From Coprinus comatus (lineage: Eukaryota > Basidiomycota > Agaricomycetes > Agaricales > Agaricaceae): a stretch of DNA of 64,000 nt. A program made the translations under genes and the position numbers. Below the pieces are notes generated by a model. That model made no database searches and had not been told where the DNA came from. It saw nothing but the letters and a program-made list of their open reading frames with translations. Shown here piece after piece: positions 34,812 through 61,700 of this stretch; the first letter of the stretch is position 1; every line of letters starts with the position of its first letter. The stretch spans positions 248,001-312,000 of the forward strand of contig JAWPGT010000019.1 in assembly GCA_034638255.1 (NCBI GenBank). Direction: 5' to 3'.

Positions 34812-35956
34812 ATGAAACTCTCCCAACTATCTCTCCTCACATTCTATCTCTCTGGGACAGTCATTGCTTCTGTCATCGACTTCGACCATCCCAAACAACA
34901 ACCTTTAGTCGATATCAACAGAGTTGATGTAACTGCCACTTGCCCAATACCCGCGAGACCTCCCCACGGCAAGTTTTGGGATAACGACAACAGAGCAATT
35001 GAAGAAGTCCATGCTTTCAACACCAAAGAACAGATGTTCGCTGATCCAGGAGAGGGCACAAGTGCATCGGTTCCCTGTTCCCTCCATTCATTTATTAACC
35101 AATTCTTTATCTTTACAGCTGTCACGGTCAACGGTGTTCCTTACCTTCTCAAGGATGATTTAAGTGGCGAATCAGCTTCCAGGGTTTGTTGATACCCAAC
35201 AGCACTAGTGAACTCTTGCTAATGACATTATAAACACATTACAGACATACCGAGCTCATCCAGTCGGTAGTCCCGCTACAATCCGCTACGCCAAACGTCC
35301 TGTATACAAAACAGATCCAGGTGGAGGGTTTGCTTCTGAAGTCAAATGGACACAACAAGCTTCCAACGCTCTTGGCATATCATTATACTATTCCACCGGT
35401 GTCGATCCCGATTTCCAATTCCCGTGGTTAATTACTTATGCAGTTCCTGGTAATTTACTCATCGGACGCTGGGGCGCAAACCGTGCGCTATTCCGGACTA
35501 GAGCCCAATGTGAGGCAGATCTTGAAACTGCAAAAAGAGTAATCAGTACGAAGCAAAGAATTTTGGCAAAGGATTCTAGAACCAAATTTATTCATGACGA
35601 TAGTCATCCTGAAAACGTACGTGAAATATACATTGTTTTGTTCACTAAATTGAACGGATTCTCACATGGACTTCTCTTTTTAGTGGTATGTAGCAGACAA
35701 AGGTTCTATCACGAATGCTACACCTATTGATTTCGGTAAAGTCCGCTCAACAGTAAGTCTTATTCATTGTATTTCTATTTCTTGCACATGACATTGATCC
35801 AACTATTTTCCTTGTCTACTCATTCGGTTCTAACAGGCTGGATTAACTGATTCCGCAATCGACACCTTAATTGCGGATACGATGAATCAGCAGTACAAGC
35901 TTAAGAATGAGGTCTGGGCTTCATTGTCAAGCGACTGCGACCTTTGTCATCCATAG
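34812..35956 (+). CDS. Secreted protein family, copy A (unrecognised)
   Basis: Predicted 291 residues in five exons (34812-35061, 35119-35183, 35245-35616, 35684-35752, 35837-35956), all in phase. There is a signal peptide (MKLSQLSLLTFYLSGTV). I do not recognise the family. It shares exon boundaries, phases and motifs with copies B-D: TVTVNGVPY, SASR|TYRAH, TIRYAKRPV, FQFPWLITY, RAQCEADL, TKFIHDDSHPEN|WYV, PIDFGKVRST and LTDSAIDTLI...QYKL. Copy A has an N-terminal extension of about 50 residues before TVTV that B and D lack. Two cysteines (in RAQC and near the end, CDLCHP) are conserved and could form a disulphide. The product is probably extracellular; function unknown. Confidence 0.78.
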
Positions 35957-37890
35957 ATAGCGTGACATGACATGCAACTGTAAGTACTATACCATTAGTA
36001 GACTGCAGTACATGTTGAGAACTGTTGTAGGTGTGATTCCGTAATGATAATGAACATTTAATGATGTTGGTTCTGGCGCTCATTTAACATGATTATGACA
36101 TTGACATCATGCCTCTGGAGATCAACAAAACCGGATTTGTTTTCAAAAATCAATTTGGGAACTTCAAAGATAGGAAGGGAATGACCTTTGTTTTACAATG
36201 ACCCGATGCAAAGATACAATCTTATCTATCCTGACGCAATTAGATGGTGACTTTAGGTCTCAAGGTCTCGAAGACCACACAATACTACTACTTATTTTCA
36301 ACTCGACTCTCCAACAGAGCCCGCAATGGGCCAAAATCTGAATGCAGCAGATGTTGGAAGAGAAAATTGTGATATATTAATAACGACTCATTGTGATGAC
36401 CTGCCAAAGTTGAAAAGCATGAAAAGCTGAGGCAAACTCAAATGTACTATTTAGTAGTAGTGCGACACGAATTACTAGAATAATAGTACTGAGAAGTAAG
36501 CCAGAGCATTTTAAACAAGAGATGTAATCCTGGATGTTTCCCAACTTCTTCGTCATCCCGTGCTATCGTCATTCCAAGCTTCCATGAAACGTAAGTAGAG
36601 GGCTTCTGCCATAGAGTTCATAATCTTATATAAATAGACTCAGGAGTCACTACTAGTACTAGTCCTAGTGAGGTTGAACATCTTTTGGCGAGGAGTTAGC
36701 AGCAACTACCGTGACATTGATTAAATGAATACGGTGTACCATCCTATACTATGGGACTTGTTATTTTACATGAACGGTAACGTCGGTATTCTGAAGGAGA
36801 CGGGAGTGAAAGACCTCCGCGAGATATTTATATGGACAAAAGTTCCGATTCGACGGCATTGATCTCGTATGACACGGCATAGAAGCCCTGGTAGAACGTT
36901 GTCTAAAGTTGCCTAGCTTTGTAGAAGGTGCAGCACGCACTGACCTTCAATGGTAGATGTATCGTTTCAGTTCGTTATTATTTCAATAAGTAAAACATCA
37001 GACGCACCATAGAATAAGTTATAACATCTGGTCGTAGCACTGCCTACGAAGGCGGACCAAGAACTTCGCAAGCTCGCAAAGGACTTACTGAACACGTTGG
37101 AAAGTCATGGGACAGTACTAGTAACAACACCTTTGACGTAGTACGCGGTTCTGAGATTCTAGAAGTTAACGCGTGAAGATGATGGCTACCATTTTGATTT
37201 CTCTAGAGTCCCTTCGGCGCCATAACATCTATACAATAAGGGAAACGTATCCTGAGAGAAGCAAGTAGAGAATATTAGTGTAAAAAATATGTGGCCTAAA
37301 TAGTAAATTTCTTCAAGTTATCAACCGACGAAGCTAAGTTATCCGATGGACTGCAATACGCTGTCTTCCATATGTTCTCGGTTGCTGTATATACGCAAAT
37401 AGTACGAGAGTAGGTATAAAGTGAGGTCGAATTATTGGTCGAAGTTATTGAACATTGAAATATTGAACGGTGAACCCAAGTTCAACCAATGAAATTTGAA
37501 TTTGAAACGTTGGTGTGACTCCTGTCACTGCCAGTCTTCGGACATCACAGAGTCGGAAGTCCAGCTTGTCTCTCTAACCTGCTACTCATGCTAGACTAAT
37601 AATAACTTAGGAGTTTTCATTCACAGTGGCACAACGAAGTTCAAGCACCGAGAAACTTTTCAAGTGGAGCCTCGTTTACACTCATACTAACTATGCCTGT
37701 TGCTTTCGAAGGGAGTAGCAAGATAGATGAGGTCACTAACTCACTTCTGTTCGACAGGAAAAATCTAGAAGAGATGAGATGCTTCCAAAGTGGATCCACA
37801 TAGCGCGACATTTTACTTGTAAGCATCACCAATGCATCAATACCGAGAGACGAAGATGAATCTATGAGAAAAACTGAGGGGTGGAAAGCA
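35957..37890. other. Gene-free spacer between copies A and B
   Basis: About 1.9 kb without a supportable gene; AT-rich with stops in all frames. The last 300 bp share blocks with the upstream regions of copies C and D, for example a GAGATGAGATG(C/G) stretch followed by TTCCAAAG and a GATGAATCTATGAGAAAA stretch, so the promoter was duplicated with the gene. Confidence 0.5.
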
Positions 37891-37898
37891 TATAAAAG
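37891..37898 (+). promoter_or_regulatory. TATA box of copy B
   Basis: TATAAAAG lies 94 bp upstream of the copy B ATG. The same box in the same context (..TATAAAAGCCAC.GAAAGGTAGGACAATAA..) precedes copy D on the other strand, and a variant precedes copy C. Confidence 0.65.
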
Positions 37899-37991
37899 CC
37901 ACCGAAAGGTAGGACAATAAATCAGTACTCAGTCTTCCTCTGACGACTCAGGATCCCCTTCTCACTTGATAAACCAAGAATCCCTTTTACA

Positions 37992-38961
37992 ATGTTGAAA
38001 ATTGTACTTTCTCAACTTGCTTTTTGCGTCTTCTATGTCGCTGGAGCAGTTATCCAAGCTCGTCAAGGTGATCCAGGAGTTGGTTCTAGTATGTTCCTGT
38101 CACCTTAAAAAGTTCATATGTATAAATTACTGATCAATAACGGTGATCCCAATGTAGCTGTCACCGTCGCTGGTGTTGCCTACCACCTTGATTACGATGT
38201 CTCAAGTGCTGGATCGAATGCAAGGGTTTGTACCCTCCAATTTATTTCCCAAGTTTTTTCGAGTTCTGAGACGACAAATTAAATCATAGACATTCCAAGC
38301 ACACGTAGTTACCACTCCTGCGATAATTCGTTTCGCCAAGCGTCCCGTACGCAGAGAAGATCCCAATCAGGAATTCGCAACAGAAGTCGCCAACACCAGG
38401 AGTGCCTCCACGGTTCTCGCTATCAATTTATTCTTTGCTTCTGGAACCGACCCCACTTTCAATTTCCCCTGGCTTATTACCAATGTTGTTCCTGGTGCTG
38501 CAATCGAGGCTCGCTGGATTAGCAATCCTGATGCCTACAGAACTAGGGCACTATGTGTTGCAGACCTCAACACTGCTAGGAACCTCATTGTTACAAGGCA
38601 AAGGACTCTGGGAAGAAATACGGCAACGAGGTTTATTCACAATGACAATCATACTGGAAACGTAAGTGGACATTGATTGCCTGGAGGTCGTAACTTAAAA
38701 CAAACATCTGTGCTTTAGTGGTATGTGCCTTTAACAGGAGCTATCACCAATCCCATTCCTCTTGATTTTGGTCAAGTCCGCAGTACGGTATGTTGTTCTC
38801 TCCGCTCTCCCGGGTTTTTTTGACCAATGTTACGATTTAGGTCTGGTTTGACTGATGCCCAGATCGATACCTTGATTACCACTACGATGAACACACAATA
38901 TCAAATCAATGCTGATACATGGGCAGCTTTGACGTCAGAGTACAATATTTGTAGGCAATGA
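37992..38961 (+). pseudogene. Secreted protein family, copy B (C-terminal frameshift)
   Basis: Exons 37992-38088, 38158-38225, 38290-38661 and 38719-38787 encode a protein nearly identical to copy D: a signal peptide (MLKIVLSQLAFCVFYV), TVTVAGVAYHLDYDVSSAGS, IIRFAKRPV, FNFPWLITNV, ATRFIHNDNHTGN|WYVPLTGAITNPIPLDFGQVRST. The last exon begins after TTTAG at 38841 as GTCTGGTTTGAC, whereas copy D has GCTGGTATGAC. One extra T therefore shifts the frame and gives a TGA four codons later. The remaining 37 family codons, ending ICRQ at 38961, stay open in the shifted frame. Without that base it would encode 241 residues. The product may still be made in a shortened form lacking the last conserved segment. 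Confidence 0.75.
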
Positions 38962-39757
38962 GCACCAAGAAAGAAAGAACTCACAGCCCTTTGATCAGAA
39001 TGTCTTTTATGACTGCAGAAGTTTGAAACCGAATGAATTTGTATCTTGGAAATGTTTATGTAGAAGTACTTGTGTGGCTGATGAATAACAAGCATATTTG
39101 TTGTGAAAGAAAGACTCTATCACTGAGACATCTCTTGAAACATGACGCTGTACATAAAACTGACTTTCAAATGTTCATTGAGCACGGGATATAGGAACAA
39201 AATCTGGCAATATACATTCTATAGACTTCTATGTTTCCATTTGTTTCCTATACGCAGGCAACACGAGATATAAACTGAGCTCTACCATATTTCAATGAAT
39301 TGCTGTATGGTGACTTACAGACAAAGCTACATTGTTAAGTTGGCGTTGGACGTTGAATGTTAAATATTGCATGTTGATGCGGACGTGTGATCTCTGTGTG
39401 TAAAATGGAGCCCGACTTCATCCTGCTTCCCTCCAACATCCTGCTTCCCTCCAACATCCTGCTTCCCTCCAACATCCTGCTACTGGACTAATATTAACTC
39501 AAGTACATACTAACAGAATTTCAAGCCCTGTGAAGATTCTCAACCAGAAGTAGCTCGGACACCTGATATTCCTGGGTGCAGTACTGGCAGGTGAGCGCTG
39601 AGGTGACAGGTCGCTGATTCGTTCAACAGGTAAAATAGAAGAAAGAGATGAGATGGAAGATTTCCAAAGGCCACTGCGTTCGCATAACATCACATTTCAC
39701 TTGTGAGCCATCACTAATGTATCAATGCCGAGATGAAGATGAATCTATGAGAAAACG
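38962..39757. other. Spacer between copies B and C
   Basis: No gene. It contains an 18-bp minisatellite (39419-39481) and, from about 39490 on, promoter sequence related to that of copies B and D. Confidence 0.5.
39419..39481 (+). repeat. 18-bp minisatellite, about 3.5 copies
   Basis: The unit CATCCTGCTTCCCTCCAA is repeated head to tail about three and a half times without visible variation. The units are not coding. Confidence 0.9.
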
Positions 39758-39765
39758 TATAAAAA
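39758..39765 (+). promoter_or_regulatory. TATA box of decayed copy C
   Basis: TATAAAAA sits in the same context (..AAGCC..AATAAATCAGTACTCAG..) as the TATA boxes of copies B and D, showing that the promoter was part of the duplicated unit. Confidence 0.5.
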
Positions 39766-39845
39766 GCCTACGAAATCTACGGCAATAAATCAGTACTCAG
39801 ACTTCGTCTGACAGCCCTCTTTCTACTAATATCTCAAGAATCTAT

Positions 39846-40620
39846 TATCTCTTACAATCCTACACTTTCTCAACTTGCTTTTTGTGTCTTCTATGTCACT
39901 GGAGCAGTTATCCAAGCGTTGGTTCCAGTATGTTCCTGCGACCCTAAGTTAATAATGCGCAAGTTACTGATTCAGAAATCGGCATATTCAATGTAGCTAT
40001 CACCGTTTCTAACATTACCTACCATCTCGATTCCGATCTCTCACTGGCAAGCCCCGGATCAAATGCAAAGGTTCGTGCCCTCCAATCTTCAGAACATTCT
40101 CCGATTCTAAACAAAACAATGGCCAATGCCAGACCTTCCAAGCGAGTGTAGGTTGATGCCACTCCTGCTATTAATCGATTCGCCAAGCGTCCCGTACGCA
40201 GAGATGATCCCAATCACGAATTTGCTATAGAAATCGTCAACACTCGCCATACCTCCGCAGTTCTCTCGATCGATTTATTCTTTGCCTCTGAAACCGACAC
40301 CACTTTCAATTTCCTCTTGCTGTTAGGAGCCTTATCATGGAAAGGCAGAGGATTTTGGGAAAATACGCTAGAATAAGGTTTATTCATAGTGACAGTCATC
40401 CTGAAAACGTAAGTGAACGTTTGAACATCGATTATCTGGATATCTTAAAAATTAATATTTCTATTTTAGTAGTTTGTAATCCCATTCCTATTGATTTCGG
40501 TAAAGTCCTCAACACGGTACGTTACTTCTTCCATTCTCCCGAAACGGTTTAATTAATGTTAATATATTAGGATGAGATGACTGACACCGATGTCGACATC
40601 TTGGTTTAGGCCACTGTGAT
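39846..40620 (+). pseudogene. Secreted protein family, copy C (decayed)
   Basis: The sequence follows copies B and D through most of the gene but is broken. The initiating ATG is replaced (ATCCTACAC.. instead of ATGTTGAAA..). The end of the signal peptide and first exon is deleted. A TGA interrupts the third exon after TTCCAAGCGAGTGTAGGT. The segment between FNF and the RGFWENT region is missing about 120 bp, removing the FPWLITNV block and the RALC cysteine. The exon 4 start (TAGTAGTTTGTA) has lost the WYVPLTG part. Residual exon order still matches. This is a clear pseudogene. Confidence 0.8.
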
Positions 40621-41534
40621 GATAGGCGATGATACCATGTCGAATTAGTAATGGCATGCTGATTGGTTATTACTGATGACGTCTGCTGGCTCTTTTGATC
40701 GGGATGTCTTTTAAGAAGTTTGAACGAATGAATTCGTATAATGGAAATACTTATGTGGAAGCAGTTGCGTAGCTGATGGATAATAAACATATTTTTTGTG
40801 AAAGAAAGACTACGCTGAAATGCGATATTCTGAGGGCAGGATATAAGGACTACATCATGATATAAAAAGTCTGAACAGGTATTGTTTGCCAACTCCATCA
40901 CGGCCTCGCGTTTCATCCAGAGGATGAGCCACTAACTGAGGGCCTAGATCTTGTGATCCTAATCAGAGGCCCAATGAGCAAAAGTGGGACAGTGTGACGC
41001 CTGGATCCACTGCAATGGGGGCAATGGTCATCGTGGAACTGCTGGATGAATTGGAGCTCGAGCAAGTGCGCCATCAAGCTCATGAATGACGCCTTGCTCC
41101 TTACTTCACCATCATGGGTAAAGTGTCCCTACGAGTGATGGCCTATAAGTAAAATAATCATCTCAATATAAAAGGAACACTTGCATTGTCACCATCGTCC
41201 TCAGAGTCCTCGATATATGCGCGTGGTTCTTCAGCCCTGCGTCCTGAGGCACCTTCGCCAACTGACTGGACATCGGTAGATGTTGAAGCGACAAGCTCTT
41301 TATTATCCTTCGCAAAGGATCAGTCAAGGCTTGGAAATTAATAGCGAGACCCTCACCATAGTACGCTGCTTCTTCTTTTTGTTGCGACGGTTGCGTTTAT
41401 TGCCCTTCATCTTCTCAATAGTAGGGACTGTAGAAATAGAGATGATGGTGGGCGGGGAAAAGATGGTAACTTGGAATTGGACTCCTTTTATATTATGGCA
41501 AGTTGAGTATATGCGCTCTTCTGGTGACGTAGAG
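40621..41534. other. Gene-free spacer
   Basis: No gene supported. One stretch around 40990-41090 reads protein-like for about 30 codons (ending in an acidic helix LLDELELEQVRHQAHE, then TGA) but has no family match I can name. The remainder is AT-rich. Confidence 0.4.
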
Positions 41535-41995
41535 TCATTGCAAGCCTAAATGGTAACCGAATGTCCTTAGAAAGTGCAAGTTCGCCGTAAAGGACAGCGG
41601 ATATAATAGCTTAGAACGCCATTTCTCCACAAAGACAGAAATAGGTGATACTTTATTGTTTAATCTACTCCGAATCATCTTCGCGGACGATGGAACAGCA
41701 GATGATTCCCTCCTAGCCGTCTGGCTTCCAGGTTTGACCCTTCTGTCATACTTCCAGAACTCGCATTCATCATCGTCCGAATCATAATAATCATCCGCTT
41801 GATGGTTTTGACGATTGGAATGAAAGTCAGTGCATCCCAACAGAAAAATTCATAATGGCCGGCTTTGACGATCTCAACCTCCTCTCCACTATCAATGAAA
41901 CTGGTTCTTGAAATAAAAGGGCGTCTATTTTCTTCTTTGTCCTCTGACCTCTCTTTAGGTTCATTTTCCTGATTTAATTCTAGAGGTTAGTTGGG
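41535..41995 (-). pseudogene. Broken paralogue of acidic nuclear protein
   Basis: On the minus strand, 41980-41850 reads EDKEENRRPFISRTSFIDSG then EEVEIVKAG, closely matching EDEDEDKRPVLSRTFFLDKN / GEKVDIVVREGG in the intact gene at 42429-43649. After a frame change, the 41535-41840 frame carries QADDYYDSDDDECEF, matching READDYYNSEDSQDN of the intact gene. Most other parts are missing, and the two segments are in different frames. I read this as a truncated duplicate. Confidence 0.6.
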
Positions 41996-42428
41996 CGATT
42001 TTTTTTCGAGTGGCAGAGAATTAATTACAGAAGACCCTGAGACACACCCTTTCTCTTCTTTATCTTGGCCTCGATAAAACTTTGCCAATCAACGGGCTTC
42101 GCCTACCTCGGTTTGTACAGATAACTAAATATATTGAGCTCGAGATAGTTTGGAGTAGAAAGTTAAACCTGTTTCTTCGTCTCTTTCGAGTCTATTTATA
42201 TTCATATATACGGAAGTCCTTGGTGACAAGACACAGGAACGTCACGTCAGTTTGAGTAATTCCGAAGAAGCAGTGATGTTTATCATTAACGGATCATTAC
42301 TACGATAACAACGAAAGACGAACGAAAGAGACATAACGGAAAAGAAGAAACTAATTATTATGCGGATGCAAGTTTGTTTGTCAAACGAACCACTGACTCA
42401 ACTCCGAAGTTCAGTGAAAGTGGTTCTA

Positions 42429-43649
42429 TCACTGGTTCCGCTTAGGATTCTTAACACCCAGGCCATGTTTATACGGTCCAGACCTACGACCACTCCTAAC
42501 TTCTACCGTATGCTTTGTGGTAGTTCTTTTGTCCAAAGAAGAGGAAGGACCATCCCGTGAAGATTTACCTCTTGGTAAATTTTTAACAGAAGTCTTCTTA
42601 AGACCATTGGCGACCATTTTACTTCTGGAAGTGGTATCGTCCTTCTCGTTCACATTAGTACCACCAGTGTTCCTGCCATTGTTTGACGACGAAGGTGTAC
42701 CAGTTCTCGTCCTTGTACTCTGCGAGTAGGATCGGTCAAAGTTGCCATTTGAAAGAGTAGAAGTAGTAGTACTTACATTTTCCATCTTTCTTGGACTCAC
42801 ATATATTTCTCCTTCTTCTAGATCATTATCATCATCATAAAGACATGGCTCGAGTTCCTCAGACTCAAGTCCGAGTCTATGGGTCATCCCCCTCTTGAGA
42901 ACGACCATGCAACTGTTAGAAGGATCATATTCTTCTTCTTCTGAAGTCGAGTCAATTTCGTCATGGTTGTCCTGTGAGTCTTCAGAGTTGTAATAATCAT
43001 CTGCCTCCCTATGCATCCCAGATTCAAGAAATTGAGCTGCAAATCCCATTATACCAGCCATCCGTTGTGTTTCTTCATCATCCGAATCTTTCTCTACAAT
43101 TTTTACGCAGCACTATAGTAATAATCAGCATTAAGTATAATTCATCGAAGTCGGCCCTTAGTACACCGTGTACAATGACAATAATATTCTTAAAAAAAAA
43201 CTTGAAACACCCACCTTGTTGCGCAAGTCCCTAGCATAAAGTCCCTCGTATTCCGATGGGCATTGTTCTTCCTCTTCATCCGAAGGAATAGGACCTCCCT
43301 CTCTAACAACAATATCTACCTTCTCACCATTCTTATCGAGAAAAAAAGTCCTCGAAAGTACAGGTCGTTTATCCTCATCTTCATCCTCAACTTCAGCCTC
43401 CACCTCCATCTTTCCTTCTTCTTCAACCTCCCCCTCCTCCTCACATATTTTCCTTTCCTTTCGTCTTCGTGGTCGCTTTCGTCTCGAACGACGAGTCTTT
43501 TTATATTTAGTCGGTAGTATGTCATTCGAAGCTTCAATATCGTGTTGTTCAGAGACTTCCTCTACTAAAGGTACTGTGGGAGGTCGTGTTTCGTCCTTCT
43601 TCTTTCCTTTTGAATGAGGTCTAGTCGTACTAGTGCGATACGGAGGCAT
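42429..43649 (-). CDS. Acidic/basic low-complexity protein, unrecognised
   Basis: Predicted 372 residues in two exons (43649-43215 and 43112-42429, minus). I do not recognise the family. The first half has a basic cluster (KTRRSRRKRPRRRKERK, a likely nuclear localisation signal), a Glu-rich stretch and the compact motif RPVLSRTFFLDKNGEKVDIV. The second half has READDYYNSEDSQDN, an acidic Ser-rich region and a basic tail (SGRRSGPYKHGLGVKNPKRN). The alternation of acidic and basic blocks suggests a nuclear or chromatin-associated protein, but that is inference. A truncated paralogue lies immediately downstream at 41535-41995. Confidence 0.65.
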
Positions 43650-44311
43650 GCTTATGAGCCTTTACCAGTTCTCCTAGGAGGGAAGTCTGTGCTGTGCGCT
43701 CCCTGGAAGTTGAAACAAGCTCGTTTGTGGAAGTAGTTGTGTGAGGTGGCCAACTGTGGAGTACACGGCATTTATATGCATTGATGAGTGTACGTATAGG
43801 ACTAGTTACAGGAGATCCGTTAACTACAGGTTATTCAATAGTTGTTCAATAGAGTAATCCTTTAGACTAGTATTTAAACCACTCCCAGAAGCTGTGCTTC
43901 CACCGAAAGCAGATTACCACCATTTTGCATACTTGCAGTAACCTGAGTATATATATTGTATAGTACTGTACTTACACATGTGGTTTTGAAGATCTAAACT
44001 GCTTTCGTTAGAATCGGTGAGGAGAAAAGCTAGCCTTTTGTTCAAGATATAATTCAATTTAAAGTCCGCGAGAGCAACATGTGGTCTATTTTTATCATGG
44101 GTCGACCCGGGATAAACCTACCTTGACTTCAATCTAGTATATGACTCAATGTTACAGAGTCTTGCTTTCACAGCGAATATGCCATTCATCACTACACAAC
44201 TATTCCACATAAACATTTCCAGGATACAAATTCATTCATTCGGTTCAAATTGCAGTCATAAAGGACATTCCATTTCCGATCAAAAAGCTCTGACCTTGGG
44301 GTTCCTGGTGT
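43650..44311. other. Spacer between acidic-protein gene and copy D
   Basis: No gene. A frame at 44149-44367 (plus) is a shadow of copy D and its 3' flank. The 3' flank of copy D resembles the 3' flank of copy B in inverted orientation (for example TTCATTCGGTT near 44235 against its complement near 39030). Confidence 0.5.
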
Positions 44312-45286
44312 TTACTGCCTGCAAATATCGTACGCTGATGTCAATGCTGCCCATGTATCAGCGTTGATTTGATATTGTGTGTTCAGAGTGGTGGTAATCA
44401 AGGTATCAATCTGGGCATCAGTCATACCAGCCTAAAATCGCAACAATGAATATTAGGCAAATAAAACTTGGGGAGAACGGAGAAAACAACATACCGTACT
44501 GCGGACTTGACCAAAATCAAGAGGAATGGGATTGGTGATAGCTCCTGTTAAAGGCACATACCACTAAAACACAGATGTTTGTTTTAAGTCACGACCTCCA
44601 GGCAATCAATGTCCACTTACGTTTCCGGTGTGACTGTCATTATGAATAAACCTTGTTGATGCATTTCTTCCCAAGGTCCTTTGGCTTGTAGCGATGAGGT
44701 TCCTGGCGGTGTTGAGCTCTGCAACACATAGTGCCCTAGTCCTGTAGGCATTAGGATTGCCAATCCAGCGAGCCTCAATTGCACTACCGGGGATAACATT
44801 AGTAATAAGCCAGGGGAAATTGAAAGTGGTGTCGGTTCCAGAAGCAAAGAATAAATTGATGGCGAGGACTGTGGAGGCACTGCGAGTGTTGGCGACTTCT
44901 GTTGCAAATGCTTGCAAGGGATCTAATCTGTTTACAGGACGCTTGGCGAAACGAATAGTAGCAGGAGTTGCAACTACGTGTGCTTGGAAGGTCTATGATT
45001 TAATTTGTCGTCTCAGAACTCGAAAAAACTTGAGAATGTAAATGGGAGGGTACAAACCCTTGCATTCGATCCGGCACTTGAGACATCGGAATCAAGACGG
45101 TAGGCAACACCAGAAACGGTGACAGCTATATTGAAATCACCGTTACTTATCAGTAACTTGTATCATACACTTAGGTGGTAGGAACGCACTAGCACCAACT
45201 CCTGGATCACCTTGACGAGCTTGGATAACTGCTCCAGCGACATAGAAGACGCAAAAAGCAAGTTGAGAAAGTACAATTTTCAACAT
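44312..45286 (-). CDS. Secreted protein family, copy D (intact)
   Basis: Predicted 241 residues. Minus-strand exons: 45286-45190, 45125-45058, 44992-44621, 44563-44495 and 44431-44312, all in phase. There is a signal peptide (MLKIVLSQLAFCVFYV), a short RQGDPGVGA segment, then TVTVSGVAYRLDSDVSSAGS, NAR|TFQAHVV, TIRFAKRPV, VLAINLFFASGTD, FNFPWLITNVIPG, YRTRALCVAEL, STRFIHNDSHTGN|WYV, PLDFGQVRST and AGMTDAQIDTLITTTLNTQY, ending DICRQ. Family unknown to me. Intron positions and phases equal those of copy A, so all copies descend from one gene. It lies in opposite orientation to copy B, which is its closest relative. Probably secreted; two conserved cysteines may pair. Confidence 0.8.
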
Positions 45287-45373
45287 TGTGAGAGAGATCC
45301 TTGAGTTATTAAGAGAGAAGAAGGCTCGTCGGAGGAAGACTGAGTACTGACTTATTGTCCTACCTTTCAGTGG

Positions 45374-45381
45374 CTTTTATA
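45374..45381 (-). promoter_or_regulatory. TATA box of copy D
   Basis: TATAAAAG on the minus strand, 88 bp upstream of the copy D ATG, in the same flanking sequence as the copy B TATA box. Confidence 0.65.
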
Positions 45382-47311
45382 TGCTTTTCCTTGACCCCCC
45401 CCGGTTATTTATCAACTTTCTCATGGATTCATCTTCATCTCTCGGCATGGATGCATTGATGATGTTCACAAGTGAAAGTACGAACCCACTTTGGAAATCC
45501 TTCCATCTCATATTTTTCTTCAATTTTGCCTGTCGAACAAAAATGACTTAGTGACCTCACCTTGTTACTATACACACATCGGGCGCCCGAGCTAGCATGA
45601 ATTTAGATGTTTCACCCTGTTAGAAGTTTCTCGGAGCTTGATTGCTTGGGCACTGTTATGTATATATGAACGGAAATTCTCTCAAGTTGAACTCCGTGAC
45701 ACGTGAGGCCCCGAGGTCCGACATTTCACGAGACAGTGGTCAGCCGGAACGCAGCCACACTTTAACCTCTTCAACATCCGTCAAGAATTCAAAATGCCTA
45801 CATCGCTTTATATTTGCTCTCGTGATATCCGGAAGACTTTAGCTAACGTTCCTCAGTTGATAATTTGAAGGAATTTAGGCCGCATACATCCACACCATAT
45901 ATATATATCGTCCGACCATCAAACTACGTTTTGATACGATACCGAACAACCTCCTAACCAATGACAACCTACCTGGCCAAGTACTAAAAACTCCATGTCT
46001 CTGTTTCAACTTTCTGATGGACTCGAAGCGTTTCTATTATCTCTTTCGTCAATACTACCTGTCATGTATTCAAGTCTTGCCCAACGTCAGATGGAACTGG
46101 TATAGCTTGTAGGCTTGTTCGTTAACTCCGGGTTTAAATTGGGGTAAAAACAAAAAGTGTAAATCTCCTTATTCTGTGTTTGCTTCTTCTCAGATGCCCT
46201 CCTTCTTGTCAAGACCTCGTGGCGCCGAAAAGACTCTAGAAACTCAAAATGATGACTATCGTACACATGCGCTCCACAGTCAACTTCTGGAGCCTCAGAA
46301 CCATACATATTAGTAAACATACTATGTCAAAGGCGTTGTTACTAGACTGACCCATGACTTTCCAACGTGTTCAGCAAAGTCCTTTGCAAACTTATTGAAA
46401 TAGTAGTTAACTGAAAAACGACACATACACACTGCTATCTCTAAACCATTGAAGGTTGTGTTTTGCACTGCTACAGAGTTAGGCAGCTCTACTCGATATT
46501 CTACCAGATTCTCTGTGTCCTATTATACAAAATCCATCATCCATGCCATCGAATCGGAAGCTTTATCTATGTAGGTATCCCGCGACGCTCTTTCAACCCT
46601 CCTGTAACCTGTCGTAGGGTTACAAGTGGGTGATATTCTTACACATAGTCGAACAGCAGCTGATTCTGCACGGTCTCTGTATTTCGAAGTCAAAAAGGTA
46701 AGAATTGCTTACATCGCAACTAGGTCCAATGTCTTATAAAGGGCATTGGACAAATAATAATAAGCTTTCATAAAAAGAAACATAACAGTGAAAGCCGGGA
46801 CGGCTCACTGAAGATGAACAAATATAATAACTCACGAAGGTCCAAGGTAACGGCCACGAAGTTACTATATTAAAGATTGAGAGTGCGCACAGTAAGGTAC
46901 AAGTAATAATATGAGGACGTGAGGGAAGCGGGAAGGGAACGATGTCCTGTAAGATGGGGAGGGTCCCATCTTATATACCTGTTTATGTCAGTATTTTTAG
47001 TCGTTATATGCAGTATGCATTAGTTCTTGGGTCTATGATGTCACTAGGTGACGTGGTAGGTGTGTAACTGTTTACAAACAGATGACGTATTGGATCATCT
47101 ACCCGTTACACCTCCTTAGGGCCTCCTATCTCCTCCTCTCCAGAACACTGATATAACCAGTCCTGTGAAATAAGAAGACATGGAATAGTCAACTAATATA
47201 GGGTAGCACCCCGCATTTCATTAAAGAGATGTTCAACCTGACTGGTGGCTTCTCTATTTCTATAAAGTTTAAACTCACGGGCTTTGCTACAGAACACAGA
47301 TGTTTTACTAC
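45382..47311. other. Gene-free region between copy D and the retrotransposon
   Basis: No supportable gene. Frames at 45642-45842 (plus) and 46087-46320 (minus) have no family features. A (TA)n-rich tract lies near 45898-45908. The first 350 bp repeat blocks seen upstream of copy B. Confidence 0.45.
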
Positions 47312-48506: not shown

Positions 48507-50124
48507 TTGATAGGTCACAACTTCAACGAAGCAGATCTCGTTACCGAGAAACCCCTTCCACCGAACCCTTCCCAGTTCACATCCCCGGACCGATCCAAGC
48601 CTCTACCTCACAAGACTCTGGATGCTCCACCTCGTCTTTATACACAACCACCAGTACCTCCCCAATCTCAGCTTTTCGGAGAACCTAGTCCTATACAACG
48701 ACAAGGTTCGCAATCTAGCGAAACTTCAAAACAACAATACAGAGAGAAACAACAACAATCTTCATCTGAAGAAGACAACTCAGACGACGACGACCCCCCG
48801 CCAATCCCTCCTCGAAGACCTAGAGTTACTATCCCGTCTCGAGTCCATACACCAATCACAACTCCCGCCCGCCACCCAACAACTCCACACACTCCGTCAT
48901 TACCCCCGGCTCCACCAAATCCCTCCACACCTACTACAAACAGCTCGTCAAGCTCAAATCCAACGATGCCCTCCACAACTACAGTCCCAGCACTCAAACT
49001 CCCAGTTCCCCCACCATTCGCTGGAGACACAGCATCCTACGGTCATTGGAAACAACGACTTGGAATCTACTATGCAGCAGATCAAGCCCGATTCCATGAC
49101 AGCGAAACAAAGATCCTATACACTCTTTCCCTTATGGTTGGACCGGCAGCCACATGGGCACATGCCTTCACAGAGAGCGCATACGACGACAAGACTTCAA
49201 CCTACAATTTGGGAACCTTCACAGCATTCACCAAAGCCTTGGACACAAGCTTCCGCTCATCCACCCACGTCTCAGATGCCATGGCCCGGATTACCAAGTT
49301 TAAACAAGGAATGCGCAACGTACACGAGTACATCGCAGAATTCGAATCCCTTGCACTTGAAGCACAAATCACACAGGACACACTCAAAATCCATCTCTTC
49401 AAAATGGGTCTTGAACCCACAATTGGAATGTATGCCATCAGAGCCATGCCAGCCGATACCTATGAAGCATGGAAAGGCGCTGCCCGCGCAGCCAGCCACA
49501 TACTTCAGTCTGAACGAGACTATCGTCAGACACACTATCCCCAAAGGAACCCTCAAATACGTCAAAACCCTCGCTATCGCCAGGCTCAAAACTTTCGTCA
49601 ACCGCAGTCTATCCCGCGTTACGTTCAACCACCCGTGCGCAAAAGACCCGTACGCCATGGATGTCGACTACATCGAAGAGGCAATCAATAACCTTCGCCT
49701 CAACGGTGAAGAGGAACTCTGTAACATACACGATGAACAGGAGGACTTTGAAGAAGAAACCCCTCAGCCATCTCAAATTGATCCCGGAGAAATCCTTAAT
49801 CAATTCATCGACAGAGTCTTCACAAGCGAACAAAAGGAATTATTCAGAGATCGACTCTGTTTCCTCTGCAAGAAACCAGGCCATTTCGCCAACCGATGCC
49901 CAGCTCGACGAACTGGCCCATCACCTAATCGCCCGAGGACAATCCCTCGCCAGGCGTACAACCAGAGGAAGGCCCCGACCAAAAATCGAAACCCCCATCT
50001 ACGACGCCAGATCAACAACCTCATTGAAACCGCCCCTGAAGAAGAAGTAGCAGACGTCTACGATTACTTCTCCCAAGATAACATGAACAACGATTTCAAC
50101 AGCAAAATCAAGGATTTTGCTTAA
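48507..50124 (+). pseudogene. gag: gag with one-base frame break
   Basis: Capsid/nucleocapsid region. A Pro/Ser-rich N-terminus leads to a capsid domain (KLPVPPPFAGDTASYGHWKQ, AMARITKFKQGMRNVHEYI, ESLALEAQI) in one frame up to about 49640. It continues in the next frame as DPYAMDVDYIEEAINNLRLN and the CCHC knuckle CFLCKKPGHFANRC (about 49858-49899), stopping with TAA at 50122-50124. The frames join at CGCAAAAGACCC, so one extra A would explain the break. The first frame begins at a TTG and I see no upstream ATG in frame, so the start is uncertain. Confidence 0.85.
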
Positions 50125-53100
50125 AGAGATTAGCCACCACGTCTAACTCTCTTCCATCTGTGTCTACTGCCCCATCTACATCATCATATTCTATTCCTCT
50201 TCCACTCAACGCTGTACAACTCGGAGGAAATGGATCCAACTCTATCTACGCCCCCACACAAACTTCCAGTGCAGTAGCCAACTCAGAAACCATGGATATC
50301 CTCGCCCTCATCGACTCAGGAGCAGGAGGAAATTTCATTGACCCAGCTTTGGTAAAACAACACCAATGGCCTGTCAAGAAACTCTTAAAACCCATTACTG
50401 CTTACAATGCAGATGGTACCAAAAATGGTGTTTGTTCATTCTATTCCCCATTGAACTGTACAGTTAATGGTCGACAAACAACCATCGAAGCCAAAATAAT
50501 CAGTCTCGGAAAACCTAGAATCATTTTAGGATTCCCCTGGTTACAAGAAAATAATCCAGACATCAACTGGTCTGACAGATTACTCAAATGGAGAGAAGAA
50601 GAATCAAGCGACGAGATATACCTTGATCTAATTCAAACCATTACTGACGATGACACACAACTGAACAAAATCTGCCTCGATGAGGAAGACTCAGTTGAGA
50701 TTAATGTCAAAACATCATCCTCTAACACCATCGCTCAACAATTTGGTGACAAGAAACAAGACGACCCTAAGAAAGTCGTTCCTAAAGAGTTTGCCGAATT
50801 CTACAAACTCTTTGACAAGAAAGCATCAGAACGCTTTCCTCAAACCCGACCTTGGGATCATAAAATTGAACTCGAAGATTCATTCGAAGCTCGTTCAATT
50901 AAACCATATCGGTTATCACCTCTAGAAGAGAAGGAACTGGACACCTTCTTAAAAGAGAATCTTGAAAAAGGTTACATTCGACCTTCGAAATCACCTATGG
51001 CCTCCCCTTTCTTCTTTGTAGGAAAGAAAGATGGAAAACTACGGCCCTGTCAAGATTACAGATATCTAAATCAACACACTATCAAAAACGCATATCCCAT
51101 TCCACTCATCTCATCAATACTCGACAAATTGAGAGATTCGAAATGGTTCACAAAACTTGATGTTCGTCTAGGATATAACAATATCCGCATAAAAGATGGA
51201 GATCAATGGAAAGGAGCTTTTAAAACAACTAAAGGACTTTTTGAACCCACAGTCATGTTCTTTGGAATGTGCAACTCGCCAGCTACCTTCCAAGCAATGA
51301 TGGACTCATTGTTTAGAAAGCTGATAGATGATGGAGAAGTCATTGTCTATATGGATGATATCCTCATTCATGCCAAAACTAAAGAGGAACTTCGCCGTAT
51401 TACTAAAGAAGTACTACGAATCCTCCTAAAGAATGATCTATTTCTCAAAACAGAGAAATGCGAATTCGAAAAACAACACCTCGAGTATCTCGGTGTAATC
51501 ATCACTCCCAACAACGTCGCCATGGACCCCGCGAAATTACAAGGCATCCAACAATGGCCCGTACCCAAGTCAGTACGAGACGTTCGCAAGTTCATTGGAT
51601 TTTGCAATTTCTACCGCAAATTCATTCGAAACTACTCCGACCTCGCACATCCGCTTAACGCTCTTATGTCTAATACTAAAGTATTCGATTGGACATCCGA
51701 ATGCCAGTCTTCACTCGAAGATCTGAAAGCGCGATTTCTCACACAGCCCATCCTCACAGTTGCCGATCAAACTAAACCGTTTGAAATAGAATGCGATGCA
51801 TCCCTATACGCAACAGGAGCTGTCCTACTACAACGAGACACCAATGGAGTCAAGCACCCAGTTGCTTATCACAGTCGAAGTTTCAATCCCGCCGAACGAA
51901 ATTATCATTGCTCAGAACAAGAATTCCTCGCAATAATTCGAGCACTCACAGAGTGGAGACACTACTTCGAAGGATCACCACACAAAACCATTGTATGGTC
52001 CGATCACGAAAACCTCAAACGTTGGAAAAACCCTCAAGATCTCAACTGACGACAAGCACGATGGACAGCGTATATGCAAAGATTCAACATTGAAATCCGA
52101 CATATTCCCGGCAAGAAAAATGGTCCCGCCGATCACCTATCCCGAAGACCTGATCACATACCTATCGGAGACGATAATCATGACGTAACTGCACTACCCC
52201 CGTCATTATTCTCCACAGATTTACGAGAAACGTCAATCTGCATTATTGATGACCTCATCGGTCAGAAAATAAAAGACGTCACTCAACAACGGTCTTCATC
52301 TATTCCTGAAACATACGTCATCGATGACGATGGTTTCCTCCGCTATCAGAACAAGATTGTCATCCCTGATGATCTTCTTCTCCGACGATCCCTCCTACAA
52401 AGAGTACATGACCATATCACCGCTGGACACCCAGGAATTACAGAAACTTTACGAAAACTAAAGCAATACTGTTACTGGCCCGGTATGAACTCGTTCGTAC
52501 ACAACTACGTTCAAGGTTGTGGAACCTGTCAACAATACAAGATCAATCGCCACCCACTCAAAGCACCCTTACAACCCATAAAAGGACCTGCTTCCATCCG
52601 TCCATTCACCCAAATCTCCATGGACATGATAACGGATCTACCTCCAGACGGCCCCTATGACTCTATATTGTCCATAGTGGACCATGGACTTACAAAGGGG
52701 ATATTAATTATTCCTACTGCGAAAACAGCCACAGCCGATGACATAGCCGAGCTATTGATAGAACGGTTATTCGCCAAATTCGGAACTCCCGAAAAGGTTA
52801 TCTCAGATCGAGGACCCCAATTCATCGCCAAGTCAATGCAAGAATTCTATTCAAAACTAAATATAGAACCCGCATACTCGACCGCCTATCATCCTCAATC
52901 CGACGGATCAACCGAAAGATTCAATCAAGAGATCGAACTATTCTTATCCATCTATTGCTCTGCAAACCCCAATGCTTGGGCACGAGCACTGCCTATCCTC
53001 GAATTTACACACAATTCCCGCACCCATGCTGGTCGCACTCAAACCCCATTCGAACTAATGTATGGCTATGCACCAAAAACATTCCATACTACGGAAGAAC

Positions 53101-53651
53101 CCTCAAACATCCCATCTATCTCATCCCGATTTGAGTACCTCAAGCAAACAAGAGAACAGGCTCAAGAAGCTCATGAACATATGCGTCAACTTATGGCCGC
53201 TCGATCGAACAGACCATTACCAACCCTAGAACCAGGACAACGGGTCTGGCTCGATAACAGAAACCTCCAAATCAAATACAAATCGAAGAAAATGGCACAG
53301 CGCCGAGAAGGCCCCTTCAAAATTCTACGCAAAATAGGAACAACCACCTATGAACTAGAGTTACCAATGACGTGGAGGATCCACAACAAATTCCATATCC
53401 AACTCCTCACTCCTGTCAAAGAGAATGACGTATATGGCAAAATGTTTACAACACCACCTCCAGACATCGTAAATGGAGAAGAAGAGTACGAAGTCGAAAA
53501 TATCCTGAACCACCGAGGAACCCCGAGGACAAGACGGTATCTTGTTCATTGGAAAGGATACTCTTCCACAGAAGATTCTTGGGAACCTGAATCGAATCTT
53601 ACCAATTCAGGAGCAATCCTAAAAGACTATAAAGAGAGACATGGACTCTGA
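50082..53651 (+). pseudogene. pol: pol polyprotein with internal TGA
   Basis: Aspartic protease (ILALIDSGAGGNFIDPALV), reverse transcriptase (KKDGKLRPCQDYRYLN, active site VIVYMDDILIHAK), RNase H (FEIECDASLYATGAVLL; AERNYHCSEQEFLAIIRAL; WSDHENLKRW), integrase (zinc site HDHITAGHPGI..CGTCQQYK; DDE residues in SMDMITDLPP, VISDRGPQF and STERFNQEIE) and a chromodomain (YEVENILNHRG..YLVHWKGYSSTEDSWEPESN). The frame is open from about 50082, overlapping the end of gag by about 40 nt in the -1 frame. A single TGA at 52047-52049 interrupts RNase H just before RQARWTAYMQRF, where the family normally has arginine. Otherwise it is intact. Confidence 0.94.
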
Positions 53652-58747: not shown

Positions 58748-61700
58748 TCATACTACTTGTTCCAAGGAAGAGGGGGAAAGTACATCAAATGGATCAACAG
58801 ATTCTTTGTTACACATCTCTGGCTCTGAAATACGAACAATTGTTTCCAAGTCCCTGCATAGTTCTATTTCAGCCTCATCGTCTTCTTGTTCTTCTTGCAC
58901 CTCAAGATCTTGTTCATTCAGTGTGTGAGGAAGGTTGAGAGATGAGAATCTTGCTGTGTTTGTTTGAAGGCAATGTTTTAGGTCCCCAGCAATATGTGAA
59001 ACTGCACTTTGATGTTCTGCCATCAATCCTAAACCAGCCCCCTGCAGTATAGACCGATGTTTGTGGTTCATTTGTTCAAACCGAACCCTCTCGAGATGAA
59101 TTTGATAAGCCAGTTCTGGTTCTGAAAGGGATAACTGATTTTCCATTGCTAAAAGAAAGTCCTCTTCATCTTTGATGTATACGAGAAAGTGATTGGCCTC
59201 AATCTCCACTCATTCTATTTCCTCGCATGCTCTTTCCATCTTGAAGTACCGATCCAACAGTGAATGTGCCCAAGCCCTTTCATGGACATCTTCAGTGGAA
59301 TCGGATAATAAATCAAACTCTGATAAAAATATATACTCAACAACTTGGTCCCATTGCAAAGGAGGACGAGGGGGATCAAGTTGTGCAGCTGCATTGTTGA
59401 AGTCATTTAAAAGTTCCCTGATTGCGGTTGACCATTTTTGGAGAGCTTTTGAGATCTGTTGTCACATTTTATAGCCTGATAACAAAATCACTAGTAAAGA
59501 TAACAAATTGGTGGATGAAGTTGAAAGACTTACCTCGATGTGACTGATTCATATGTCCCAGCTCGAAGATCCTCTGGACTACCTTGCTCTCTAACTTCTC
59601 TAATTTCAGACGGTAGTCCCTTGTGGTGATTCTCTCCGACACCCTTGTCCAGTTTTGATCTCCTTTCACCCACCGCTTTGTGATGTTCATCTTTAGTTCA
59701 AGGTCATGGACATGCCCTAGAACTGCCACATGTAGCTCGAGATTATGCTTATGGTCGCATTTGGACTTGGTGGTGGTAGTAGAATAGCTGGTGTAGTCAT
59801 GATTGCTAAGGTTGGCTGCTGTCTCAACAAAGTCTTGATGCGACAGTGTTAGTTTTTTTCTGTTCAGCTAATTTTAGGATGAGTACATTAAAAAATCAAC
59901 ATAAGAACTCACTGAACATCAAGTAGCTCAATCAGGCTACATAGATATTGCATTTCCCAGGTCTCTACTGATGATTCTTTCCCTCTACTTTGCAAATACT
60001 CTCTTTCTTCAGTGAGCCAGTCCTTGAAAACAGAGTTGTCCTTGATACCCATTTCCACCTTTACTTTTTCAAATGAAGGGGTGTTGGACAATATTTCCTT
60101 TGCACGTTTGTAGTTTGTGACAAGGAATTTGCCTAGAATACAGATCACATTAGAAAATTTATGGTGGATAAAGGAAAAATTTCATACTCAGTCCCTCATA
60201 AGTATCTGTTTTATCCAAATGTTTAAAGTAGTTGGTAATACACTGCAGCCGATGGAATGTGCTGGAGTGGCGAGTTGTGGTGGCCAAGTCGTTTGACTGC
60301 GAAAATAGATGTTCTGCACCTTCCAAATCACTAAGACCGAGGCCCTCCATATAAGTTGATAAAAAAGACAGTTGACACAGGTGGTTATGAGCATGGCCAT
60401 GAAATGCCCCAACCAAAGATGTATAGTCCAGTTCTTTCGCTTGTGCTCCGAGTGCGCTATTAGCTAGCATGATCTTGAACCAACATCCGATGTCATACCC
60501 AGGTAGCTGACTAACCAAAAGTGGTAACAAACAGGTACCACTAGTTGTTATAAATGGATACCACTAGTTGTTTCAAATAGGTACATACATATGTATCTTA
60601 CTTGGCACATATGTCTGTACCACCCTTTGTACATATATATGTATCCATTATTATTATGATAGGCAATAGGAATGAATTAATCTGAATTTTGTACACTTTT
60701 AGATTAGAGAAATTCGAAAAATTGAAAAAAAAATTAGGTGAAATATAGTAGATTTATACAGGAAACTTGTACAAATGTACTACATTTCTCATAATTGTAG
60801 TAGATTCCTACAAGTTTCCTGAAGAAATCTACTACATTTCCAATAATTGTGGTAGATTTGTACAAGTTTTCTGTATAAATCTACTATATTTCACCTAATT
60901 TTTTTTTTCAATTTTTCGAATTTCTCTAATCTAAAAGTGTACAAAATTCAGATTAATTCATTCCTATTGCCTATCATAATAATAATGGATACATATATAT
61001 GTACAAAGGGTGGTACAGACATATGTGCCAAGTAAGATACATATGTATGTACCTATTTGAAACAACTAGTGGTATCCATTTATAACAACTAGTGGTACCT
61101 ATTTGTTACCATTTATATCAGTCTCCTGCCCCATCATACCCTCCACCCAGGTTGGACCCAAATACATCCATCATCTTTTTCACCACCGCTAATGGGTACT
61201 GTGTACTAGGCAGTGTTAGGTTTTAATACTATGAGAAAAGAACATATAAATTATTACTTACCCCTCACAGCTCCTGATCATATCTGTGAATACCAAGATA
61301 AAGCCATGTCAACATAATGACACAAAGATGCCACTTTCTTCGAAAATCCCAAGTGACTTAGTGGTCATTTGTTCGGACATATTCTTCCACCTTCCCGAAC
61401 AAGGACTATCAACGACCTTGCCAAATGAAAACTTGTTAGTAATCTACTTGATAATGATGAATTATGAATCCTACTTCTTCCTCAGAATCCTGTGAGCCGC
61501 TTTTCTGGAATGATTCTTTTTGAGAATTCTTTGACTGAGAATTGAAACATGGTTAGGAAAATATTTAGGAGGATATGGGAGGATACACTTACCAGATGTT
61601 TTTTGGGAACTCCTTTTTCAGGTATCATTTTTGCAACATATACATACATGCTGGACATGCATGTGACAACCTCCACTCATTATCATCTCGTTGAAGCACT

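Follow-up and report, generated by a model that had tools for sequence, protein, structure and literature searches.

A multicopy family of predicted secreted proteins with a kinase-like catalytic core in Coprinus comatus

A cluster of five related genes

The window analysed here, a stretch of 64,000 nucleotides (C19:248001-312000) in the 35.7-Mb, 134-contig genome of Coprinus comatus, carries a cluster of related genes for small proteins with signal peptides. A preliminary description made from the letters alone had reported four five-exon copies, A to D. All four were recovered at their places by repeat search and translation, which confirmed the common five-exon build, and hydropathy bore out the signal peptides. 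A fifth copy, E, was missed at that time; it lies about 1.5 kb to the left of the window edge and brings the length of the cluster to ~48 kb. Intron positions and phases are the same across copies A, B, D and E.

34812-35956, + strand: copy A, complete five-exon reading, about 291 residues, secreted-type
34812-35061, 35119-35183, 35245-35616, 35684-35752, 35837-35956, + strand: exons of copy A
37992-38961, + strand: copy B, open through exon 4, then frame shifted by one base
37992-38088, 38158-38225, 38290-38661, 38719-38787, + strand: exons 1-4 of copy B; exon 5 (38841-38961) out of frame
about 39864-40620, + strand: copy C, dead, with start codon lost, exon 3 truncated and in-frame stops
45286-44312, - strand: copy D, complete, about 241 residues, secreted-type
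45286-45190, 45125-45058, 44992-44621, 44563-44495, 44431-44312, - strand: exons of copy D
C19:245507-246460 (L006 6460-5507), - strand: copy E, complete

The exon-1 donor of copy A (35061) is uncertain, with three candidates, and its position is approximate. The copies range from intact (A and D) through truncated to dead (C), as had been described: in copy B the frameshift at exon 5 leads to a predicted stop at 38853-38855 and the loss of the C-terminal ~38 residues, and in copy C the motifs FAKRP, HSDSHPEN and DFG are each readable, but in separate frames. Protein identity to copy D is 90% for copy B (exons 1-4), 83% for copy E and 51% for copy A, and copies B and D form inverted nucleotide matches, among them stretches of 575 nt (90% identity) and 148 nt (91%). 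Exon-3 protein matches reach E-values of 1.7e-61 between copies E and D and about 1e-36 between copy A and copies B, D and E; those of copy C are weaker (3.4e-5 with copy A, 2.0e-18 with copy E). Judged from these sequence matches, the relatedness of the copies is not due to chance.

A wider family in the genome

Whole-genome searches with copies A and E identified ten distant paralogues with 36-44% identity over exon 3 (E-values 3.6e-12 to 1.4e-19), distributed over contigs C9 (four loci), C69 and C15 (two each), and C72 and C49 (one each). Together with the five cluster copies the family comprises at least 15 loci. Searches seeded with two distant members recovered the same loci minus the dead copy C, plus one extra weak match on C19 (E-value 0.35). 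The copies on C69 and C72 are about 98-99.8% identical to those on C9 and may represent haplotypes or recent duplicates, in which case the number of distinct loci would be perhaps 12. The exon-5 junctions of the distant paralogues are approximate, and in one locus (L047) exon 4 is frameshifted. The stretches that carry distant paralogues on C9, C69 and C72 (L046-L051) are themselves ~92-99.8% identical, as haplotype contigs or recent segmental duplicates would be.

Signal peptides and cysteines

In copies A, B, D and E, hydropathy over 19 residues peaks at 1.69-2.58 in the N-terminus and does not exceed 0.96 in the rest of the protein. Signal-like N-termini were also read in all six distant loci whose 5' ends were read (L045, L047, L051-L054), where a signal-like peptide such as MKFSASFVVLAFALAKSTVALP is followed by a charged or repetitive linker and then by the kinase-like domain described below. 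Hydropathy and reading thus found a signal peptide, with no hydrophobic stretch strong enough to span a membrane after it, and on these features the family proteins are very likely secreted. The mid-domain and C-terminal cysteines are invariant in 7/7 aligned domains, which suggests that they form a disulphide. In L047 and L051 the linker is repetitive and basic (PPADNKKPPADNKK...), and the basic stretch at its end might be a processing site.

A probable kinase catalytic core in the conserved motifs

The motif series shared by the copies had not been placed in any family by the preliminary description. We find that this series most likely corresponds to an ordered kinase catalytic core, a placement based on profile matches and on motif patterns at the 15 loci. 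FAKRP is assigned to the beta-3 lysine, EVxxT to the alpha-C glutamate, WLIT to the hinge, HxDxHxxN to the catalytic loop and DFG to the Mg loop. In the intact or partly open copies of the window these elements lie as follows.

35287..35301, + strand: copy A YAKRP, read as beta-3 lysine
35587..35616, + strand: copy A FIHDDSHPEN, read as catalytic loop (HxDxxxxN)
35729..35737, + strand: copy A DFG, read as Mg loop
38332..38346, + strand: copy B FAKRP, read as beta-3 lysine
38632..38661, + strand: copy B FIHNDNHTGN, read as catalytic loop
38764..38772, + strand: copy B DFG, read as Mg loop
44936..44950, - strand: copy D FAKRP, read as beta-3 lysine
44621..44650, - strand: copy D FIHNDSHTGN, read as catalytic loop
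44510..44518, - strand: copy D DFG, read as Mg loop

Pattern search of three-frame readings found the beta-3 lysine, HxDxHxxN and DFG at 15/15 loci. The alpha-C glutamate was found by pattern at 14, and the fifteenth (L054) has KEVENT by reading.

The profile search that the preliminary description had proposed for copies A and D leads to kinases once the distant members are included. The best Pfam match of copies A and D is the ABC1 kinase family (PF03109, cut-off 22.9 bits), covering the HxDxHxxN-DFG stretch at sub-threshold scores, and all four distant paralogue domains tested exceed that cut-off (27.1, 32.9, 23.1 and 24.6 bits). APH (PF01636, cut-off 23.2 bits) is the second Pfam match in the same four domains, below its cut-off at 17.9-22.5 bits; copy E scores 12.3 bits against it, and copies A and D have no APH row. 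The NCBIfam models MABP-1 (ABC1-type) and UbiB match the HxDxHxxN-DFG stretch of copy E far below their cut-offs. A profile built from seven family sequences matched 12 chains in the PDB at E<=1, and 12/12 are kinases: 11 protein kinases (best E-value 0.0027) and one ABC1 protein (E-value 0.94). When the family profile was compared by hhalign with an alignment of nine bacterial or archaeal ABC1 proteins and one ABC1 protein from the same genome, the two aligned with a probability of 94.3 (E-value 1e-7) over 48 columns, from the catalytic loop to DFG. Reversed and shuffled controls gave no kinase matches (0/8) and one chance match to Haemadin (E-value 0.29).

Searches of a protein collection whose fungal share is uncertain gave no match for copy D (E<=1e-3), for query A2 (E<=1) or for query A3, composed of eight exon-3 sequences (E<=0.1). 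Pattern scans with A3 yielded 21 matches in viral contigs and 26 in prokaryotic genomes, none of which is a relative.

Relation to known kinase families

Some ordinary protein kinases of the same genome also exceed the PF03109 cut-off (for instance L016 with 31.5 and L017 with 31.0 bits, both HRDxK); the ABC1 match therefore speaks for a kinase core and not for ABC1 membership. The family resembles ABC1/UbiB/COQ8 proteins, its best Pfam match, in that the HxDxHPGN catalytic loop and DFG of that family align with its own. As described in the literature on UbiB and COQ8, these proteins carry a KxGQ motif in an N-terminal extension (PMC7877690), an A-rich (AAAS) loop replacing the Gly-rich one (PMC7263595, PMC7877690) and an ExD motif (PMC7877690, PMC7263595), which we observed as QELDF in bacterial ABC1 proteins. 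In three-frame readings, which could miss a motif split by an intron, KxGQ was absent from 14/15 loci, the sole string, at copy B, lying upstream of the start codon, and neither the A-rich loop pattern nor ExD (as QExD[FL]) was found at any of the 15. Unlike ABC1/UbiB/COQ8, the present family is half the size, has a signal peptide and shows a Gly-rich-loop pattern instead in 8/10 distant paralogues. The likeness to APH/choline-kinase-like proteins lies in the second Pfam match and in HGDxHPGN with DFG; the family differs in scoring below the Pfam cut-off, in being secreted and in lacking the long C-terminal part. By its predicted catalytic core the family would work like ABC1 and APH kinases and is probably akin to them, and it is set apart from UbiB/ABC1 proper.

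CotH of the Mucorales is a kinase-like protein in the secretory pathway. The Fam20 family of animals is described as kinase-like proteins with a signal peptide (PMC7948968). The likeness of both to the present family is one of setting and does not imply kinship, and Pfam scans of the family proteins gave no match to either. FunK1 and other expanded fungal kinases are likewise multicopy kinase families in fungi, but FunK1 is intracellular, unlike the present family, and was not matched in the same scans.

Evolution of the cluster

The ratio of nonsynonymous to synonymous substitution rates (dN/dS, Nei-Gojobori) is 0.21-0.31 in 6/6 pairs of copies A, B, D and E, with dS saturated in the three pairs that include copy A (1.35-1.75). 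The copies are under purifying selection, and pairwise averages carry no protein-level signal of an arms race. Copy B and the inverted copy D (37958-39100 vs 44203-45387) form a mosaic, with 100% identity in exon 4, 99% in exon 1, 86.6% in exon 3 and 81% in intron 1. Introns 2 and 3 together with exon 4 are 95-100% identical vs 86.6% in exon 3 (Fisher p 1.6e-5), intron 1, intron 4 and exon 5 match exon 3 in divergence (81-88% identity), and in 60-column steps along the gene identity varies from 74.5 to 100%, in exons and introns alike. This uneven divergence is consistent with gene conversion. Positive selection on exon 3 of copies B and D was considered for this reason and rejected: among the 40 codons that differ, 23 differ synonymously, a similar divergence is found in intron 1, intron 4 and exon 5, and identity is patchy.

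TATA-like boxes precede the start codon at -101 in copy B, -95 in copy D and -87 in copy E, copy C retains one (TATAAAAA at 39758-39765), and copy A has ATAAAA at -66. The boxes were duplicated along with copies B, C, D and E, which agrees with the promoter duplication first described for B, C and D. The preliminary description had further read the cluster as a fast birth-and-death locus and suggested a conflict, recognition or effector role. Gene birth and death are indeed seen. The conflict or effector role had been deduced from fast evolution, and the low dN/dS in every pair and the conversion-like divergence of copies B and D give that deduction no support; copy turnover by itself is no proof of such a role, which these data still allow.

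Secreted enzyme or kinase-like scaffold

Overall, the most likely identity of the family is a small, divergent and probably disulphide-bonded branch of the kinase-like superfamily. We put a probability of about 0.6 on the reading that its members are secreted, minimal kinase-fold enzymes with a catalytic core closest to those of ABC1/UbiB and APH kinases; the predicted fold is highly probable, and catalytic activity is somewhat more probable than not. Several observations weigh against this reading. Copies A, D and E score only 13.9, 14.5 and 17.0 bits against ABC1, all sub-threshold, and the ABC1 profile matches are limited to the catalytic loop and DFG. With window-type sequences alone, the hhalign probability falls to 75.6 over 37 columns, and a phmmer search of the PDB with copy D gave seven weak rows (six Hsp104, one nucleotidyltransferase) and no kinase. 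The Gly-rich-loop pattern was not found in copies A-E (0/5) or in 2/10 distant paralogues, and only about 45 residues follow DFG, fewer than in canonical kinases. Two AlphaFold models, with predicted local distance difference test (pLDDT) scores of 37 and 40, are unusable for fold comparison. The first has strand, helix, strand, strand, helix, strand between beta-3 and the catalytic loop, at pLDDT <50, and is given no weight; its kinase-like order is not repeated in the second.

With no Gly-rich-loop pattern, the cluster copies could also be pseudokinases, the fold serving as a secreted scaffold for recognition of a partner from self, host or microbe without phosphate transfer. The short C-lobe and the turnover of copies within the cluster would also fit. 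Pseudokinase scaffolds often lose catalytic residues, however, whereas the lysine, the glutamate, HxDxHxxN and DFG are kept at all loci and the sequences are under purifying selection, and we consider this explanation unlikely. The APH matches of the four distant domains, along with an expanded and variable copy number that would suit chemical defence, could instead point to a secreted APH-like enzyme that detoxifies antibiotics or other small molecules of competitors by phosphorylation. Such a role is quite improbable, as every APH score is below the cut-off, ATP is scarce outside cells and our data show neither a substrate nor a resistance context.

Short sequence matches, the failure of copy D alone to match a kinase in the PDB and the unusable structure models would all fit an accidental or convergent resemblance of HxDxHxxN and DFG in a secreted protein of unrelated fold. 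Against this, separate models concur (ABC1 and APH in Pfam, UbiB and MABP-1 in NCBIfam, and the PDB profile matches), the elements follow kinase order with kinase-like spacing, including the asparagine five residues past the catalytic aspartate, and the controls lack kinase matches; we regard a non-kinase origin as very improbable. Hardly credible is the explanation that a mitochondrial targeting signal was mistaken for a signal peptide and that these are ordinary COQ8/UbiB relatives. ABC1 is the top-scoring Pfam family, but the N-termini are hydrophobic and not basic amphipathic, and the proteins measure about 200-290 residues. This misreading was rejected given the separate ABC1 genes present in the genome and the UbiB marks (KxGQ, A-rich loop, ExD) not found in the readings.

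If the family members are secreted kinase-fold enzymes, the N-terminal signal would route the protein into the secretory pathway, and the disulphide between the conserved mid-domain cysteine and the C-terminal cysteine would stabilise it. The AKRP lysine, the alpha-C glutamate and the DFG aspartate would hold Mg-ATP, and the HxD aspartate would aid phosphate transfer to a substrate or ATP hydrolysis, in the endoplasmic reticulum or Golgi, in the cell wall or outside the cell. The cluster itself probably grew through tandem as well as inverted duplications, accompanied by local gene conversion and by the death of copies. More tentatively, the ~12-15 loci might constitute a minimal (~200-residue) secreted fungal kinase class apart from UbiB/ABC1 and APH, phosphorylating proteins or small molecules either extracellularly or within the secretory pathway, with the cluster as a branch whose nucleotide loop has changed. 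Few kinase-fold enzymes are known to act outside the cytosol. Literature searches turned up no title or abstract on a secreted fungal kinase of the ABC1/APH-like type, a weak indication that none has been described. Should the proteins be active, a set of uncharacterised small secreted proteins would move into an enzyme superfamily, and phosphorylation outside the cell or in the lumen would become directly testable in this fungus.

Neighbouring elements

Two mobile elements lie to the right of the cluster.

48622-53651, + strand: retrotransposon with protease, reverse transcriptase, RNase H, integrase and chromodomain in three open reading frames
60162-60563, - strand: KDZ (Kyakuja-Dileera-Zisupton) transposase fragment, E-value 5.5e-34

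The zinc knuckle of the retrotransposon scores just below its cut-off. This chromodomain element and the KDZ transposase could plausibly have given rise to rearrangement. Between copies C and D lies a low-complexity charged gene (42432-43661, - strand) with no Pfam match, and the region at 41538-41986 (- strand) reads like a degraded second copy of it, the two having ADDYY(D/N)S(D/E)D in common by eye.

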